Positions 4,418-11,940 of a stretch of 64,000 bases of DNA are shown in pieces. The position numbers and the translations under genes are program-made. The notes beneath the pieces were generated by a model, which worked only from the letters and a program-made list of their open reading frames with translations, had not been told where the DNA came from and ran no database searches. The first letter of the stretch is position 1. Every line of letters begins with the position of its first letter. The stretch is from Dyadobacter jiangsuensis (lineage in GTDB: Bacteria; Bacteroidota; Bacteroidia; Cytophagales; Spirosomataceae), in NCBI RefSeq assembly GCF_003014695.1, contig NZ_PYAS01000001.1, forward strand, positions 678,738 through 742,737, given 5' to 3'.

Positions 4418-4512
4418 GAGGTCTTTCAGTTACTCATTCACTCATTTGAAATTCGGTCATTCAATCATTGGTTGTCATTAGGTCAAGAGTGGTCAGGAGT
4501 TGTCAAGGGTAG
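4418..4512. repeat. Degenerate GTCA-rich low-complexity tract
   Basis: Between the lyase and symporter genes the plus strand shows tandem-like degenerate units: CTCATTCACTCATTTG, GGTCATTCAATCATTGG, then GTCAAGAGTGGTCAGGAG and TTGTCAAGGGTAGTCAGG. The tract runs into the 3' end of the lyase gene, encoding its last residues (TTLDNS). A compositionally similar run is found inside the anti-sigma gene near 31975-32030. No hairpin or terminator is evident. Confidence 0.5.
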
Positions 4513-5452
4513 TCAGGGGCGCAGGGAGGGCTTCCCCGGTGGGCAGGAATTTGAAAAAGCCAATGTCGGTTAGTTGGCAATGCAGCGCGTGGTATTGTTC
4601 GTCGGACAGTGCTTCGAGCGGGAGCCGGCAAGGTCCCATATCGAAACCGAGCATTTTCATCACCGCCTTTTGAGCGGGAATCGGCGCATATTGTACCACA
4701 ATACGCACCATTTCTACGCAGAAAAGCATTTGTTTTCGTGCCTTATCGATCTCACCCGCTTCGAAATACTGCCTTACTTTCAAATAGAATGGGGCTGCGA
4801 AGTTGAAAGTGCTGCCGATGCAGCCTTTGGCACCCATCGCCAATGCAGGCAGATGGTTTTCATCAAAACCATATAACACGTCATATTTACCACCCTCGTA
4901 ATTCAGGCATTCCTGGTATTCCCATAGAGTCGAAGCGGTGTATTTGACACCAGCGAAGTTCCGAATTTGCTTTTCCGCAATGCGCATGAAATCAAGGACA
5001 TCCACCGAAAAGCCGGTGAGCGAGGGAATATGGTAATAATAGAATGGCAATTCCGGTGCGCCGGACGCGATTTCGGTCATGCAGTCGGCGAGGTTTTGCA
5101 CGGAGGTGGGTTTGAAATAAAATGCCGCCACCGACGATATGGCATCCGCACCCGCTTCCTGCGCGTGACGTGCCAGCTTGCGTGCCTCCGCGATGCTTGC
5201 GTGCCCCACGTGTACGATCATGCGCAGGCGACCTTTACCGGCATTAATCACGGTTTCGGTAACCTGCATGCGTTCTTCAAGGGTGAGGTTGGGGCCCTCG
5301 CCGTTGCTGCCGCAAATGAATATGCCCGAAATGCCGGAGGCGATCAAATGCTCGACCAATGCGGGCAGCAGCTCGTAATGTACGGCGCCGTCGGGATGTA
5401 ACGGCGTGAAAAGCGCGGCAATGAGGCCGTCGGTGTGTTGGATGGTAGGCAT
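4493..5452 (-). CDS. nanA: N-acetylneuraminate lyase (DHDPS/NAL family aldolase)
   Basis: The 319-residue TIM-barrel aldolase should split N-acetylneuraminate into N-acetylmannosamine and pyruvate in the cytoplasm. Visible family marks are the substrate-loop motif GSNGEG (48-53, matching GSTGE of the family), YYYHIPSLTG with the catalytic tyrosine around 139-140, and the Schiff-base lysine in FAGVKYTAS (K170). I start at the ATG at 5452 (MPTIQHTDG): an upstream in-frame start at 5560 would overlap the sialidase gene by 83 bp and adds a non-conserved basic stretch. It is 25 bp downstream of the sialidase gene and upstream of the mutarotase-symporter, which specifies the substrate better than the fold does. 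Other NAL/DHDPS substrates cannot be formally excluded. The last residues are encoded by a low-complexity tract. Confidence 0.87.
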   Translation of the reverse strand: MPTIQHTDGLIAALFTPLHPDGAVHYELLPALVEHLIASGISGIFICGSNGEGPNLTLEERMQVTETVINAGKGRLRMIVHVGHASIAEARKLARHAQEAGADAISSVAAFYFKPTSVQNLADCMTEIASGAPELPFYYYHIPSLTGFSVDVLDFMRIAEKQIRNFAGVKYTASTLWEYQECLNYEGGKYDVLYGFDENHLPALAMGAKGCIGSTFNFAAPFYLKVRQYFEAGEIDKARKQMLFCVEMVRIVVQYAPIPAQKAVMKMLGFDMGPCRLPLEALSDEQYHALHCQLTDIGFFKFLPTGEALPAPLTTLDNS

Positions 5453-5477
5453 ATGGAATGGATGTATTGAAAAACAG

Positions 5478-6635
5478 CTATTTGTGAGGCCGGAATAGCC
5501 ATTTTGGGGTGATCGTTTGCAGCACGATCTGTTCGTAAGCGCCGGTTTTTCCCGCTTCATAGAGGCACAGGATATTACCGTCGGGTAATACGGCCATGGA
5601 TGAATAGGCCGATGGGCCGGGGAAAATGGTGCGGATTACCGGCCACGTTTTTCCCTCATTGAAGCTGGCCCGCAACGTCAGGTTATGACGTTTGGTGGTG
5701 CTGGCAGGATTGAGGAAAAGCATTGCACTGAGGCCTTTTGCATTCGGGCGCCGGTAGCGGATGATTGATCCCTGGCATACCGGCTCTACGAGCTCCGGGT
5801 TGTCCTCCGGTGCCGTCCAGCTCACGCCGCCATCGTAACTCAGCGATTGCGCCCGCTTCCCTCGACCGAGGTAGGAGCGCATGTTCATCAGCAGTGTGCC
5901 ATTACCGTCCTCGATTTCAACAACCTGGCATTCATTCATTTTTGGTGTAATTGTGCCACCTAGCTGCCACGTGTTGCCGTGGTTGTCGCTGTAAATGGCG
6001 TGCGCGCCATATTCGAACGGGCCGTTGCGGACTTTTCCGTTCGGGTCGTCGTAGCTGAAATCGCAGGGGATTACGAGGCGGCCTTTGCGGGGGCCGTTCT
6101 GAATCTGTATGCCAATACCCGGGCCGGTCGCATACCAGCCCCATTCGGGTTTTTTGGTGGTTTGGGTTATTTCAACCGGTTTAGCCCAGGTGGCGCCGTT
6201 GTCGGAGCTCCGGGAGAGCCATACCGTCCGAGTCGACTCGGATTTTTTAGTAATAATGTCTTTTTCAGATGCGTCGCCACGATTATGGGTCAGCAGCAGG
6301 AGAATTTCGCCGGTCTGTTCGTCGAGTACCGGGCAGGGATTGCCGCAGGTATTGGCTCCATCGTCCCAGACGACCGTTTGCTGGCTCCATGTTTTGCCAT
6401 TATCCGTCGAGCGCTTCATCAGCAGATCGATGTCTCCCGCATCCCCGGCTCCCTCTTTGCGGCCCTCGCAAAAAGCGATCAGTGCGCCATTTTTAGCCCG
6501 GATGAGCGAAGGAATGCGGTAGCTTTTATAGCCGCTCTCACCTGCGCTGAACAATGCGCGGGTTTGGGGAATATCTTGTGAGAATGCACGAGTGGCGCCC
6601 AGGACGATCAGGAGCAGCCATGTCTTTTTGATCAT
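5478..6635 (-). CDS. Exo-alpha-sialidase (BNR/Asp-box neuraminidase, GH33 type)
   Basis: A signal peptide (MIKKTWLLLIVLGATRAFSQ) precedes a six-blade propeller of about 365 residues. The arginine-binding FRIP-type motif appears as YRIPSLIRA near residue 39. Asp boxes of the form SxDxGxTW are seen five times: STDNGKTW, SSDNGATW, YSDNHGNTW, SYDGGVSW and SFNEGKTW. The protein should release terminal sialic acid from glycoconjugates in the periplasm or outside the cell. No lipobox cysteine is present. It is first in the run sialidase, lyase, mutarotase-symporter, all on the minus strand with 25 and 75 bp gaps, which reads as one operon for sialate scavenging. The length of 385 is short, so no carbohydrate-binding module is attached. 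Confidence 0.93.
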   Translation of the reverse strand: MIKKTWLLLIVLGATRAFSQDIPQTRALFSAGESGYKSYRIPSLIRAKNGALIAFCEGRKEGAGDAGDIDLLMKRSTDNGKTWSQQTVVWDDGANTCGNPCPVLDEQTGEILLLLTHNRGDASEKDIITKKSESTRTVWLSRSSDNGATWAKPVEITQTTKKPEWGWYATGPGIGIQIQNGPRKGRLVIPCDFSYDDPNGKVRNGPFEYGAHAIYSDNHGNTWQLGGTITPKMNECQVVEIEDGNGTLLMNMRSYLGRGKRAQSLSYDGGVSWTAPEDNPELVEPVCQGSIIRYRRPNAKGLSAMLFLNPASTTKRHNLTLRASFNEGKTWPVIRTIFPGPSAYSSMAVLPDGNILCLYEAGKTGAYEQIVLQTITPKWLFRPHK

Positions 6636-6652
6636 AATTAGTAGTTATGTTC

Positions 6653-6670
6653 TACATATTAGTAAATGTA
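6653..6670. promoter_or_regulatory. Possible operator: TACAT-N8-ATGTA inverted repeat
   Basis: Five-base inverted arms separated by eight bases lie 18 bp before the sialidase start. A GntR/FCD regulator is encoded immediately upstream on the same strand and is the obvious candidate to bind here, but short AT-rich inverted repeats occur by chance and this is only a suggestion. Confidence 0.25.
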
Positions 6671-6800
6671 AAAGCATTGAGGCTGAACATCCAAATATTT
6701 ATTCAGAAAATAATGCAAAATGTTGGCTGGAATGTGCGCGTCTAAACTTGTTGTTGCATCCTTGACAGGATTTCTGAACCTTGCATCTACTCTTTTCTAC

Positions 6801-6950
6801 CAATGTTGCATGCCTGACGGCATTTAGGACTTTCAATCAAAGGCCGCGACGGCCTGCATCTAGAGGGGAACCACGCAGCAATGTACTTTTACCCTGTATA
6901 ACCAGGATACGTTATTTTCCTCAATCTCGTAGCGATGTAAACTACCGATC
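6801..6950. repeat. Dispersed hairpin-plus-tail repeats, locus 1
   Basis: On the minus strand, AAATGCCGTCAGGCAT is followed by GCAACATTGGTAGAAA: a hairpin with 5-base arms (plus-strand core 6810-6823) and a conserved tail. Next come another palindrome, AGGCCGCGACGGCCT (6841-6855), and a CTCGTAGCGATGTAA unit (around 6927-6941). The same hairpin and tail words recur near 29726-29910 and 31500-31562. Units face both ways. Confidence 0.75.
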
Positions 6951-6976
6951 TGCTACGGCATCATTGAACGCTATTA

Positions 6977-7675
6977 TCAGGGCTTCAACCGATCGAAATG
7001 GGGTTTCAAATGCGCCTTCATACCGCGGCGGAAATCTTCGGAATCGCCGGTTTTCAGGATTTCAACCAGGTCGCGGTGTGTGACTTTGCCGACGTCGGCG
7101 CGGCCATCGACCTGGATTTCATAATCGAGCACATATTCGAACACCGGCAGCAGCATTTTCTGAAAACGCATATAGGTATCGTTACCCGTCATCTGATACA
7201 ACTTGCCGTGGAAAGCGATTTCGTGTTCCACCCGGAAGGGCTTCTGCTGCTTGTTCACCTCCTGCGCGACGATGTCTTCCAGCACGGCGATGTCTTCGGG
7301 CGTTTTGCGGAGGTATATCAGGTCGGCGAGGCCCATTTCCAATACCAGGCGTAGTTCAAAGATATCCTTCAAAGTGTTTTTGCCGAGGAGCAGCGGGTCG
7401 AGAACGCGTTCGAGCGAGCCGAGGATGTCGGGCTGTGCGAGTATCATACCCCGTTTTTTTCGGGTATCGATCATCCCCAGCATACGGAGGCGGCTAAGTG
7501 CCTCGCGGACCACGTTGCGGCTCACTCCCAGCGCATCGGCCAGTTCCTGCTCCTTCGGCAGCGCGTCGCCGGGCACAAATGACTTGCGTTTCAAATACTC
7601 CCGAAGCCTGGATTCAACCAGATCGGTCATCGTGGATGGCTCCAAAGGCCGGATATCGTTTTTCAGATCACTCAT
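6977..7675 (-). CDS. GntR-family regulator with FCD ligand domain
   Basis: The 232-residue protein has an N-terminal winged helix of the GntR type (LPKEQELADALGVSRNVVREALSRL, about residues 38-63, shown by the SRNVVREAL recognition helix) and an all-helical FCD sensor domain. Likely metal or acid ligand residues include HEIAFHGKLY and the later HRDLVEIL histidine. FCD regulators generally bind organic acids or sugar acids and repress catabolic genes. It sits upstream of the sialidase operon on the same strand, separated by 301 bp of promoter and repeats. I infer that it controls sialate use, with N-acetylneuraminate or a derivative as inducer. The ligand is not proven by sequence. Confidence 0.92.
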   Translation of the reverse strand: MSDLKNDIRPLEPSTMTDLVESRLREYLKRKSFVPGDALPKEQELADALGVSRNVVREALSRLRMLGMIDTRKKRGMILAQPDILGSLERVLDPLLLGKNTLKDIFELRLVLEMGLADLIYLRKTPEDIAVLEDIVAQEVNKQQKPFRVEHEIAFHGKLYQMTGNDTYMRFQKMLLPVFEYVLDYEIQVDGRADVGKVTHRDLVEILKTGDSEDFRRGMKAHLKPHFDRLKP

Positions 7676-7996: not shown

Positions 7997-8842
7997 ATGT
8001 TAAAAGTTACTAGTAATGCCCTTCAAACCGTACGCTTAGGCGGCGCGCCCGATGAAACCGTATCGATGTTCGGTCCGCTGACCGACCTGATCGGTACCTG
8101 GGTAGGCCGGAAGGGGTGGAACCTGGTGGCCGTTCCCAACCAGAAAGGCGGCTTCCTGCTCCTGGTGCAGCCTTACACCGAAACGCTGACGGTGACGCCG
8201 CTAAGCACGCCTACACCCAACCGCGGAACGCATATCGTGCAGCAGGTACCGACGCTGCTGTACAGCCTTTCGATCCACAGCAATATCGACGGCAGCTTGC
8301 TCCATGCCGAAAACGGAACGTGGCTGCTATTGCAGGATTGCCCGGATGAATTCAGCATCGCACGCCAGGCTTCGGTACCGCACGGAGACTCCTTGCTGGC
8401 GTTAGGCGGGTCGTCGGTGACGCCTGGTGCGCCCAACATCCCGGATATCAGCACATTGCCCATTACCGGGCTGGGCTCCAAGCCACTGGGTTATACCGAT
8501 CCTTACCTCACGCCGCTGGAAGGTTTCAACAAGGTGAACCCGAATGCTACCCTGCGCGACGCGATTGCCGGTCAGACGATTACCTCGACCACCACTATTT
8601 CGGTCAGCACAGCCAACAAGGGAGGTATTACCAACATTCCATTCATCGTTCAAAACGCCAACACGACGAGCTTCGAGGCTACTTTCTGGATTGAAACCGT
8701 GAAGAACCCGAACACGGGCGGCTCGTTCCTGCAACTGCAATATTCGCAGAACTCCATCATCGAATTTATCCCGCAGTTCCATGATCCGTCCAAGCTGATC
8801 GAGTGGCCGCACGTGAATATCAATACGCTGGTGAAACAATAA
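7997..8842 (+). CDS. Putative lipocalin/nitrobindin-like heme-barrel protein
   Basis: The 281-residue protein has no signal peptide. Its first half contains PLTDLIGTWVGRKGWNLVAVP (about residues 23-43), close to the GxWxGxG signature of nitrobindin/THAP4-type beta-barrels. It also has ETLTVTPL, NGTWLLLQD and SVPHGDSLLALG, which I recall from putative heme-binding barrel proteins. The second half (ITSTTTISVSTANKGGI to IEWPHVNINTLVK) looks like a beta-rich extension. Start at ATG 7997 is preferred; an in-frame upstream codon adds 15 unlikely residues. It lies 36 bp before an FAD oxidase and should be co-transcribed with it and with the amine oxidase after it. A role as partner or peroxide/heme sensor is speculation; a plain hypothetical label would be defensible. 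Confidence 0.5.
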   Translation: MLKVTSNALQTVRLGGAPDETVSMFGPLTDLIGTWVGRKGWNLVAVPNQKGGFLLLVQPYTETLTVTPLSTPTPNRGTHIVQQVPTLLYSLSIHSNIDGSLLHAENGTWLLLQDCPDEFSIARQASVPHGDSLLALGGSSVTPGAPNIPDISTLPITGLGSKPLGYTDPYLTPLEGFNKVNPNATLRDAIAGQTITSTTTISVSTANKGGITNIPFIVQNANTTSFEATFWIETVKNPNTGGSFLQLQYSQNSIIEFIPQFHDPSKLIEWPHVNINTLVKQ

Positions 8843-8878
8843 GCGATTCCTAAAACCTTCACAATAAGTAGAATATTC

Positions 8879-10075
8879 ATGGCGCAACCAGCAGATCATC
8901 ATTTTGATGTGATCGTGGTCGGGGGAGGGGCGATTGGCCTCTCCACCGGTTACCATCTGGGAAAAAGAAAGGCTAAAACACTGGTTCTGGAACAGTTCAA
9001 TTTCAAAAACCAGCTCGGTAGCTCGGCGGGCGTTTCGCGGCAATACCGCATTCCGTACCCCGAGGAATATATGGTGCAAATGGCGCTCGACGCGCAACCG
9101 TATTGGGATGAGCTACAAACCCTCACTCCCAAAACGCTGCTCGACAAGGTGGGCACGCTTTGGTTTGGCGACCCGGCGGTACATTCAACCGAGGGAAATA
9201 TCGCCGAGGCGGAGCAGGCGCTTAAAGCACTTAATGTGCCGTACACCAGCCTTACGGCAAAGGAAATTGAGGCACAATACCATTTCCGCAACCTGCCGGA
9301 GACCTACACGGGCCTTTTTCAGGCGGACGGCGCCAGCATCGATTTCCGTGCTACGATCGAAACCTTGTACCAGGCCTGCGAGCGTGACCCTTATACGATC
9401 TTACAAGACGAGTCTCCGGTGACGGCCATCGAACAGGACGGAAAACTGTTTACCGTGTCTACGCCGAAAGGGGTTTTTACGGGTGAAAAACTGGTGCTGG
9501 TGCCCGGCCCGTATATCGATGGCGTGATCAATCTGCTCGGCTTTACGATCGAGGCGACTTACTGGAATATGTCCTCGTGCTATTTCAAAAAGACCGATCC
9601 GAAGATTCAATACCCGACGTGGTTTGTGTTCCAGAACGCGATCGGCTCGAATGGGAACCAGTTTTATGGTTTTCCCGGCGTGGATTGGGACCACCCGGAA
9701 TACATCCGCGTGGCACCCGATTTTGTGATTGATCCGCTCGCGAGCCCCGAGCAGCGCACGCTCGTGCCCAACCCGCAGGAGCTCGCGTACACGGCGGCGT
9801 GGGTCCGCGACCACATGACGGGCCTCGATCCGACACCTTATTTCACATCCACATGCCTCATTGCGCTCAGCAAGATCCCGAACAAGGAGTTGCTCATCGA
9901 CTTTGCACCGCCTTATGTGCCCAATAGCCAGAATATCGTGGTGTATGCCACCGGCTGGGCGGCCAAGTTTACGCCGTTTTTGGGCAAAATACTGACAGAG
10001 CTGGCGCTTGATGGCCATTCGACGTTCGATATCTCGCCGTTCAAGCTGGGTTACAATTATTTCAAAGCCATTTAA
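8879..10075 (+). CDS. FAD-dependent oxidase, sarcosine/N-methyltryptophan oxidase type (DAO family)
   Basis: The 398-residue protein opens with the dinucleotide motif DVIVVGGGAIGLSTGYHLG (residues 10-28) and LVLEQF at the end of strand two. SSAGVSRQYRIPYPEEYM follows, as in monomeric sarcosine oxidase and SolA, where this loop lies near the flavin. The segment TSTCLIALSKIPNKELLID places Cys326 where covalent FAD attaches in this subfamily. The C-terminal ATGWAAKFTPFLGKI fits the family closing motif (G-KF-P-G). The reaction is expected to be oxidation of a secondary or N-methyl amino acid with O2, giving an imine and H2O2. It has no export signal. It is followed 10 bp later by a second flavoenzyme. 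Substrate unknown. Confidence 0.85.
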   Translation: MAQPADHHFDVIVVGGGAIGLSTGYHLGKRKAKTLVLEQFNFKNQLGSSAGVSRQYRIPYPEEYMVQMALDAQPYWDELQTLTPKTLLDKVGTLWFGDPAVHSTEGNIAEAEQALKALNVPYTSLTAKEIEAQYHFRNLPETYTGLFQADGASIDFRATIETLYQACERDPYTILQDESPVTAIEQDGKLFTVSTPKGVFTGEKLVLVPGPYIDGVINLLGFTIEATYWNMSSCYFKKTDPKIQYPTWFVFQNAIGSNGNQFYGFPGVDWDHPEYIRVAPDFVIDPLASPEQRTLVPNPQELAYTAAWVRDHMTGLDPTPYFTSTCLIALSKIPNKELLIDFAPPYVPNSQNIVVYATGWAAKFTPFLGKILTELALDGHSTFDISPFKLGYNYFKAI

Positions 10076-10085
10076 AACCATCAAC

Positions 10086-11846
10086 ATGAATAAAAACACA
10101 CCACTTAACAACGGGATGAAGCCCGGCTTACAGACGGAAGTCGCGATTATTGGTGCGGGAACATCAGGTTTGTACAGCGCCTTCCGTCTGACGGACGTGG
10201 GCAAATACACCGGCGACCAGGTACAGATCTTCGATATGAGTGAGCGGCTCGGTGGGCGGCTCGAATCGGTGATCCTGCCGGGAATGAACTTCTGGGGCGA
10301 ACTGGGCGGCATGCGCTACCTCACCTCGCAGGAGATCGTGACCACGCTCATCGAAGGTTACCCGCTGTCTGAAAAGGATTTGAGCAAACGCACGCCGGTG
10401 CTCAAAGACCATATGACGCCCGTTCCGTTCCCGATGGGCAATCCGGCTGACCTTCTTTTTTACCTACGCAAGCAGCATTTCAAACAGAATGCGTGGAATG
10501 TGGCGCAGGACAAAGGCGAGAAACTGGTAACCCGCTATTATCTCAACGACGACGACATTGGTTTCAGCTCCGACCAGCTTTTCAACAAAATCATTTACGA
10601 CGTACTCGTCGCGGATCCCTGGTATGTGAGCAATTTCCCAGGGTTGGCTACCAAGAAAGGGGAGTACGACTACGAATTCAAGCTTACCAGCGAGGACTGG
10701 GACAAAGTGAAGCCTAACCTTACCTACCATTTTGCAGGTTCACCGTATGACGGGCGGAAAGTAAACGACCTGGGCTTCTGGAACCTGATCAAGGACCAGG
10801 TTTCCGAGGAGGGTTACACCTTTGTGGCGAATGCCGGTGGTTATTATTCCAACACGATCAACTGGAATGCGGCGGAAGCATTTCCTTATATGGTAGGCGA
10901 TTTTTCGGCTGATGTGACTTACAAAACCATCGAGGAAGGTTACGACAGCATTGCCTACGCGCTGGCGAACCAATACATGGGAATTGAGGGGGCTTGTATC
11001 TGGTCGGAGAACAAGCTGCTGACCTTCTCGAAAGGCCACGACCAGCGCGAGCACTACCGCTACGAGCTGACGTTCCTGAACATCCCGAGTAACCAGATCT
11101 GGCATGCCTATGCCAATCATATTATATTAGGTATGCCGCGGAAGTCGCTCGAACTGCTCGATCAGCAGAACTTCTTCTTCAATTCCAATGAGAATACCGT
11201 ACTCGACCGTAATATCCGCTCGGTGATCATGGAGCCGGCATTCAAAATACTGATGGGCTTCCGGGAACCGTGGTGGAAGAAGCTGGGCATTGACTCCGGG
11301 CATTCTATCACCGACCTCCCGATGCGCCAGTGCTATTATTTCGGAACCGATCCGCGGAACAATAACTCGATGCTGCTAGGCAGCTACGGGGATATGGAAA
11401 CGGAGACGTTTTGGAAGGCGCTTTCGGATGATACCGTGCTTTTCAAAGTGAGTGCAGCGGAATCGGCTTCGCTCGTGGAATTGAAAGCGCTTGAAAGAGA
11501 GCAGGCTACGCAACTGATGGTGAACGAAATCATGAACCAGCTTCGCGAGCTGCATGGTGCGGAGGTAGAAATCCCCGAGCCATACGTGACCTACTTCCGC
11601 GACTGGTCCGACGACCCGTTTGGCGCCGGATACCACGCCTGGAAAGCCGGCGTCGCGGTTTGGAACGTCATGCCCTACATGCGCAAGCCTGATGACGGCG
11701 AGAACATTTACGTCGTAGGTGAGGCCTACTCCGATCAGCAGGGCTGGGTAGAAGGTGCATTCTGCGAGGCAGAGAAGATGCTGGAATCCCATTTCCACCT
11801 GACAAGGCCGACGTGGTTGAGTGATGGTTATTATATGGGGTGGTAG
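10086..11846 (+). CDS. Flavin-containing amine oxidase / L-amino-acid oxidase-like
   Basis: The 586-residue protein has the FAD motif VAIIGAGTSGLYSAFRL (about 19-35), an acidic QIFDMSERLGGRL, and the flavin-near GELGGMRYL typical of monoamine oxidases, L-amino-acid oxidases and tryptophan 2-monooxygenase. The C-terminal YVVGEAYSDQQGWVEGAFCEAEKML is the usual closing motif, with G-WVEGA contacting the flavin. I start at ATG 10086, since the longer in-frame version reads back into the preceding gene. There is no signal peptide. It should deaminate an amino acid with H2O2 production. Being last of three closely spaced genes and followed by a strong hairpin at 11889-11940, it belongs to one transcript with the DAO oxidase. 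A biosynthetic rather than catabolic role is possible. Confidence 0.82.
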   Translation: MNKNTPLNNGMKPGLQTEVAIIGAGTSGLYSAFRLTDVGKYTGDQVQIFDMSERLGGRLESVILPGMNFWGELGGMRYLTSQEIVTTLIEGYPLSEKDLSKRTPVLKDHMTPVPFPMGNPADLLFYLRKQHFKQNAWNVAQDKGEKLVTRYYLNDDDIGFSSDQLFNKIIYDVLVADPWYVSNFPGLATKKGEYDYEFKLTSEDWDKVKPNLTYHFAGSPYDGRKVNDLGFWNLIKDQVSEEGYTFVANAGGYYSNTINWNAAEAFPYMVGDFSADVTYKTIEEGYDSIAYALANQYMGIEGACIWSENKLLTFSKGHDQREHYRYELTFLNIPSNQIWHAYANHIILGMPRKSLELLDQQNFFFNSNENTVLDRNIRSVIMEPAFKILMGFREPWWKKLGIDSGHSITDLPMRQCYYFGTDPRNNNSMLLGSYGDMETETFWKALSDDTVLFKVSAAESASLVELKALEREQATQLMVNEIMNQLRELHGAEVEIPEPYVTYFRDWSDDPFGAGYHAWKAGVAVWNVMPYMRKPDDGENIYVVGEAYSDQQGWVEGAFCEAEKMLESHFHLTRPTWLSDGYYMGW

Positions 11847-11888: not shown

Positions 11889-11940
11889 ACCAGAACGACA
11901 AAGGGCACCTCGTATCAGAGGTGCCCTTTGTCGTTCTGGT
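11889..11940 (+). terminator. Very long perfect hairpin terminator
   Basis: Arms of 23 bases (11889-11911 and 11918-11940) are exact reverse complements around a six-base GTATCA loop, followed by TTGATCTTAT. It lies 42 bp after the amine oxidase stop and before the convergent gene at 12043. It ends the flavoenzyme transcript and may also shield it from the opposite side, though the reverse orientation lacks a U-tract. Confidence 0.85.

Follow-up and report, generated by a model that had tools for sequence, protein, structure and literature searches.

A stretch of 64,000 nucleotides from Dyadobacter jiangsuensis (NCBI RefSeq assembly GCF_003014695.1, contig NZ_PYAS01000001.1, positions 678,738 to 742,737 of the forward strand), hereafter called the window, contains three closely packed genes, G1, G2, and G3. 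A preliminary description of this DNA, made from the sequence alone, had proposed that they form a unit of a possible heme-barrel protein and two flavin oxidases. The three open reading frames (ORFs) lie where that description had placed them, with intergenic gaps of 36 nt between G1 and G2 and 10 nt between G2 and G3. The features of the locus are as follows:

7997-8842, + strand: G1, ATG start, 281 amino acids (aa), heme_bind_FMP family protein with a predicted nitrobindin fold; candidate heme- or peroxide-handling partner.
8879-10075, + strand: G2, 398 aa, NikD-like flavoprotein; proposed picolinate-forming piperideine-2-carboxylate oxidase.
10086-11846, + strand: G3, 586 aa, predicted L-lysine α-oxidase of the AncLLysO/CaLLysO family.
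11889-11940, + strand: 23-bp perfect hairpin 3' of G3; probable transcript end.

L numbers denote the loci and G plus three-digit numbers the genomes of this analysis, G000 being the genome of the window, 8.27 Mb in size.

G3 matched the PDB entries 7eih and 7eii ("FAD dependent L-Lys oxidase"; FAD, flavin adenine dinucleotide) with 1036 and 1034 bits, respectively, across residues 2-586, and the next match, a different oxidase, scored 275 bits. Its three closest named relatives, all from Dyadobacter, were 97, 96, and 95% identical, and VioA was a distant relative (72 bits; cut-off 600). R77, E383, K387, Y268, and Y516, together with the plug loop 251-GGYY-254, correspond to the residues named in PMC8405998 (R76 in the numbering of that paper), so that every named substrate-site and O2-site residue of AncLLysO/CaLLysO (7eih, 7eii, 7eij) is kept along a full-length match. 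In an alignment of 81 sequences of the L-lysine oxidase (LLysO) family, the arginine, K387, Y268, G251, G252, and Y253 were present in all 81, Y254 and Y516 in 80, and E383 in 79; the exceptions were L048 and L095 for E383, L095 for Y516, and L107 for Y254. These results indicate that G3, judged by its sequence, belongs to the L-lysine α-oxidase family (AncLLysO/CaLLysO), which narrows the earlier assignment to the L-amino-acid-oxidase type. AncLLysO is described as an ancestor reconstructed from 28 sequences, and the native CaLLysO of Chryseobacterium angstadtii as preferring lysine, with k cat/K m values of 516, 33, and 0.81 per s per mM for lysine, arginine, and ornithine, respectively (PMC8405998). 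The preference assays concern AncLLysO and CaLLysO only. The C. angstadtii locus (L044) has a NikD-like gene directly upstream of its G3 relative and is linked to the assayed CaLLysO by species only.

The best PDB match of G2 was NikD, with 273 bits versus 104 bits for sarcosine oxidase. With the profile of the G2 family, NikD scored 358 bits, sarcosine oxidase 141 bits, and N-methyltryptophan oxidase 115 bits; on these scores, a sarcosine oxidase assignment was rejected. The NCBIfam model soxA_mon gave 177 bits, far below its cut-off of 480. We take C321 of NikD to be the cysteine that binds FAD covalently and E101, Y258, D276, W355, and K358 to be its active-site residues. The equivalents of these positions in G2 were set by alignment of G2 to NikD. 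C326, W360, K363, D281, and Y263 were conserved in 77 of 77 sequences of the G2 family, and R57 and E105 in 76, the remaining sequence being truncated by a contig end. The flavin-linking cysteine position is therefore conserved, in agreement with the preliminary label of a covalent-FAD DAO-type oxidase. NikD-type enzymes convert piperideine-2-carboxylate to picolinate (PMC4021061). By its sequence, G2 most likely acts on the cyclized product of G3 as a NikD-like piperideine-2-carboxylate oxidase; the earlier view of two different amino-acid-type oxidases holds for the protein classes but not for the probable substrate of G2.

To describe the pairing of the two genes, the contigs of one genome per species were scanned for the G3 family, which gave 137 confirmed relatives, and the best 80 loci were kept. 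G3 was immediately preceded by a G2 relative in 76 of these 80 loci, at a spacing of 13 to 37 nt in 73 and of 78 to 109 nt in three. Spacings were taken between extrapolated ends with the stop codon counted, and the 73 include the one-ORF locus L104 and L087, which is cut by a contig end. Rugamonas and Duganella (Burkholderiales) were among the 80 loci and carried both genes. Among 395 sampled Bacteroidota genomes, 6 had a G3 match and 7 a G2 match. Five genomes gave strong matches to both, and the genes were adjacent in all five, LLysO being the neighbor of G2 in the window and in the other four; the remaining matches were weak or partial (G166; G046, G069). Within the genus of the window, G2 and G3 occurred in the identical 16 of 48 genomes. 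The two form a single ORF of 956 aa in G088 and of 1006 aa in the Saprospiraceae locus L104, and the G088 fusion, searched against the genome of the window, matched the G2 and G3 genes only. Plasmid searches found G2 in 6 records and G3 in 9. G3 adjoined G2 in all five Staphylococcus plasmid records with G2, and a sixth holds a partial G3 only; the plasmids carrying the pair include mobilizable and non-mobilizable ones. On the two that were viewed (L126:639-4219 and L128:2762-6292), genes for a short-chain dehydrogenase, a NikD-like protein, and an LLysO-like protein stand in a row. The NikD-like and LLysO-like genes of the first overlap by 4 nt, and its G3, 47% identical, keeps the key residues except for a Ser in place of G252 in the plug loop. 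These results indicate that the pairing of G2 and G3 is tight and conserved and extends to natural fusions. A correlation between G2 and G3 distances (r 0.92, n 76) was set aside as evidence, since common descent alone would yield it.

Several of these loci showed further arrangements. In L095:1972-4854, an LLysO with no NikD partner has the substitutions E383Q and Y516F and adjoins a gene that by eye is of the luciferase-like monooxygenase type. In L104:270-6641, the NikD-LLysO fusion is followed by a LodA-like lysine ε-oxidase (PF17990/PF18417) and a 395-aa FAD protein in the LodB position, so that this gene run holds two lysine oxidations. In ten Chryseobacterium loci (e.g., L083:8076-8480), the NikD-like gene is preceded by one for a small protein (about 134-138 aa); the one example that was run gave no Pfam match. 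A NikD homolog from Embleya, found in the plasmid search, had no LLysO within 10 kb.

We consider it probable that G3 and G2 act in succession as the two oxidases of a cytoplasmic route from lysine to picolinate, in which G1 is most likely a heme-binding protein that removes or uses H2O2. G3 would oxidize L-lysine at the α carbon with O2 to give the imino/keto acid, ammonia, and H2O2, and the keto acid, 2-keto-6-aminocaproate, would cyclize by itself to piperideine-2-carboxylate. The NikD-like G2 would then carry out a four-electron oxidation of the ring, yielding picolinate and two further H2O2, and G1 would handle the peroxide next to the two oxidases. The net reaction would be L-lysine + 3 O2 → picolinate + NH3 + 3 H2O2; because an oxidase instead of an aminotransferase would take the first step, three H2O2 per picolinate are expected. 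AncLLysO alone, with H2O2 present, is reported to give mainly 5-aminopentanoate (PMC8405998). Tight coupling or fusion of the two enzymes and removal of peroxide would be explained by such destruction of the intermediate by H2O2. Picolinate made in this way may serve as a metal chelator, an antagonist, or a building block. A small-molecule biosynthetic unit had been one of the options of the preliminary description, and it is in this form that the option gains support.

In known picolinate chemistry, the keto acid that cyclizes to piperideine-2-carboxylate is made by a lysine 2-aminotransferase; the ring compound is then converted to picolinate by an oxidase, as for nikkomycin and caerulomycin, or is used on the way to 3-hydroxypicolinate (PMC4021061, PMC8149447, PMC11481915, PMC9854754). 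The proposed pathway resembles NikC/NikD and CaeP1/CaeP2 of Actinomycetota in its course from L-lysine through piperideine-2-carboxylate to picolinate and in the oxidase used as the second enzyme, which in the nikkomycin arm is of the NikD type (PMC4021061, PMC8149447). It differs from them in the first step, where an FAD lysine α-oxidase stands in the slot of their lysine 2-aminotransferase. No lysine 2-aminotransferase was found among the window neighbors scanned, the rest of the genome not having been searched for one. The pathway role proposed here does not appear in the main text of the AncLLysO/CaLLysO study (PMC8405998), where "gene cluster" and "picolin" occur nowhere.

G1 matched the NCBIfam family NF040572 (heme_bind_FMP) with 273 bits, above the cut-off of 150. 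Its AlphaFold2 model, built with 20 sequences, is a barrel (mean pLDDT 74.8, pTM 0.79). In a Foldseek search of the PDB with this model, ranks 1-11 were all nitrobindin-family proteins, seven of them at E ≤ 0.001 and the best at E 3.9e-5, with template modeling (TM) scores of up to 0.69 by target and 0.34-0.42 by query. The predicted fold is thus like that of the nitrobindin/THAP4 heme barrels (2fr2, 2a13, 3ia8), although G1, with 281 aa and insertions, is longer than these proteins of about 160 aa. Compared with the long FMP proteins (487-538 aa), G1 lacks their N-terminal extension and insertions. Alignment of the G1 profile by hhalign with one Bacteroidota PF08768 protein gave 94.9% at E 4.4e-8 over 111 columns; a second PF08768 protein gave no alignment, and no nitrobindin was among the matches when PDB sequences were searched with the G1 profile. 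PF08768 matched 12 of 20 aligned G1-family sequences weakly (best E 1.2e-4). H103, R123, H129, and H272 were invariant in 20 aligned sequences including G1 of the window, and H272, near the C-terminus, may be the heme ligand. We infer, as most likely, that G1 carries heme and has a peroxidase role, removing or consuming H2O2. VioA/VioB and RebO/RebD are pairs of an L-amino-acid oxidase and a heme partner. The present locus is like them in that such an oxidase adjoins a possible heme protein, for which the product or H2O2 may be the substrate; it is unlike them in the fold of the partner, and none of the window neighbors examined was seen to be of the VioB/RebD type.

G1 lay directly upstream of the pair in 15 of the 16 pair-bearing genomes of the genus, so that the three genes do co-occur outside the window, beyond what chance would give, and no full-length G1 ortholog without the pair was found among the 48 genomes. 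In the set of 80 loci, G1 stood beside the pair in 11 Dyadobacter loci, and FMP relatives stood by it in six further loci: upstream in L046, downstream in L056 (cut by a contig end), L077, L081, and L088, and as the fourth gene of the run in L108. FMP relatives from three of these six loci were tested, and all three passed the NF040571 equivalog (peroxidase_FMP) with 617-623 bits. The varying positions of the FMP genes relative to the pair argue for their repeated recruitment. The 395-genome sample held 11 places with an FMP-family gene, and five of these were judged to lie beside a same-strand flavin or GMC-type oxidase, namely the window, G000 C23, and G210, and less surely G174 and G202, where a Rossmann-like protein of 664/665 aa matched no Pfam family. 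The other six were judged not to, and the notion that an oxidase always accompanies FMP was rejected. FMP relatives were viewed on three of nine plasmid records; the one of Agrobacterium lay near GMC and ferritin-like genes, and those of Sinorhizobium and Hymenobacter did not. The literature matches listed held no useful paper on an FMP-type peroxidase.

FMP genes also occurred in other gene runs, and they adjoin GMC oxidases and PF12902 ferritin-like genes in some, not all, of the places viewed. A cluster of GMC oxidoreductase, ferritin-like, and FMP heme-binding genes recurred in Dyadobacter, another Bacteroidota genome, and Agrobacterium (L014:5369-10001, L122:7944-13023, and L131:351-6867, with L112 and L114 assigned by their likeness to L014). 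In L113:5090-11983, an FMP-type gene is followed by genes for a ferritin-like protein (PF12902), a 767-aa protein weakly like LodA, and a radical S-adenosylmethionine protein. L088:11836-17013 continues the order NikD-LLysO-FMP with a 650-aa protein, which matched no Pfam family and by eye resembles VioB, and with a ferritin-like protein of PF12902. L124:2248-9058 and L125:7488-14219 combine FMP, a thiamine pyrophosphate-dependent decarboxylase (Pfam for L124 only), the 664/665-aa Rossmann-like protein, and a further gene that is ferritin-like by eye.

The locus might also be read as an antagonistic peroxide generator, in which the three H2O2 per lysine and the depletion of lysine are the purpose, picolinate is waste or a chelating weapon, and G1/FMP shields the producer. 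Both enzymes match oxidases, not dehydrogenases, amino-acid oxidases have been reported as antimicrobial proteins (PMC4699246), and the pair travels on Staphylococcus plasmids of both kinds. However, the N-termini show no apparent signal peptide by eye, and mere peroxide making would need neither a second, ring-specific oxidase nor fixed pairing and fusions; we regard this explanation as unlikely. The preliminary description had also raised a defense or signaling device. In PADLOC, G1 and G2 had no match and G3 had a single weak one, of the desaturase type, and this idea was dropped as unsupported.

That the pair opens lysine breakdown via piperideine-2-carboxylate or picolinate is suggested by the lysine preference of the G3 family, and yet no gene for a transporter, a reductase, or ring degradation was conspicuous next to the pair, the neighbors differ between the loci listed, and the distribution is patchy, G3 being present in 6 of the 395 Bacteroidota genomes sampled and in 16 of the 48 genomes of the genus, which leaves a catabolic role very improbable. 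Equally slight is the chance that G2 is another imino-acid or amine oxidase, acting on sarcosine or pipecolate, that merely rides with G3: its superfamily is broad and soxA_mon does register on it, but NikD is its best match by more than 160 bits, the NikD active-site equivalents are invariant, and G2 occurs naturally fused to LLysO. Finally, the FMP barrel may be a peroxidase or peroxygenase that spends the H2O2 of the pathway to make another metabolite from picolinate or from its precursor, a reading to which we give quite a low probability.

Several observations weigh against the lysine-to-picolinate pathway with G1 as its heme partner. We infer the catalytic activity of the window's own proteins, and no report of picolinate or a cyclic product was found in PMC8405998. 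G2 was missing beside LLysO in four of the 80 loci (L057, L093, L095, and L107), and their genomes gave no NikD-like match elsewhere in a search that had no positive control. A Scytonema plasmid carries an LLysO about 3.7 kb from a nonribosomal peptide synthetase (NRPS) gene, and a search of this plasmid at E 1e-40 gave no NikD-like match. No user of picolinate (coenzyme A ligase, NRPS, or polyketide synthase) was recognized among the neighbors between 4.5 and 15.2 kb of the window, the part of the genome to which this search was confined. In L009 (Roseivirga type), a gene that by eye resembles histidinol-phosphate aminotransferase lies 0.9 kb upstream of G2, and an aminotransferase step may therefore operate in some relatives. 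In regards to G1, the score against NF040571 was 102 bits (cut-off 300), and the superposition on nitrobindins had a root-mean-square deviation of 6-9 Å at the low query TM scores given above. The score against the nitrobindin family PF08768 was 12.8 bits (cut-off 25), so that the earlier term "nitrobindin-like" suits the predicted barrel fold, the sequence falling short of the family cut-off. One of the 16 pair-bearing genomes of the genus (G415) has no FMP gene beside the pair, and FMP was not found in 63 of the 80 loci, one flank being shorter than 10 kb in 15 of the 80. The heme-barrel gene, which had been described as a member of a three-gene unit, is accordingly a frequent partner of the pair and was rejected as an obligate part.

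The surroundings of the three genes were also inspected. The hairpin after G3 (-47.3 kcal/mol, z -10.7) tops the list of terminator-like sites, of which 8 were found versus 5.1 expected by chance. It is directly followed by TTGATCTTAT, not by a T run, and the "one strong terminator" of the preliminary description is therefore plausible, not certain. Upstream, at 4493-7675 on the - strand, a divergent cluster encodes a GntR/FCD regulator, a sialidase-type BNR protein, and a dihydrodipicolinate synthase-family (N-acetylneuraminate lyase-like) enzyme and looks like a set for sialic-acid use. The earlier statement that no catabolic genes lie beside the unit is thus true of the + strand only. The other Dyadobacter loci listed do not consistently have this cluster next to the unit, and the divergent strand of the cluster and the variable neighbors rule it out as part of the unit.

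The product and the second enzyme of the proposed pathway are already known; what differs is the first enzyme, an oxidase, the fused or operonic form, and the unusual heme-barrel partner. No report of an oxidase-oxidase picolinate pathway was among the open-license literature matches listed, which is a weak negative. If the FMP barrel spends H2O2 on picolinate, the locus would encode a self-fueled assembly of three enzymes and represent a new class of biosynthesis, compact and driven by O2, that yields pyridines or metallophores. The FMP heme barrels are indicated as frequent partners of H2O2-making oxidases. The proposed pathway would be an O2-only, two-flavoenzyme route to picolinate that extends across Bacteroidota, Burkholderiales (Rugamonas, Duganella), and Staphylococcus plasmids, and it is a likely native job of the crystallized L-lysine oxidase family.

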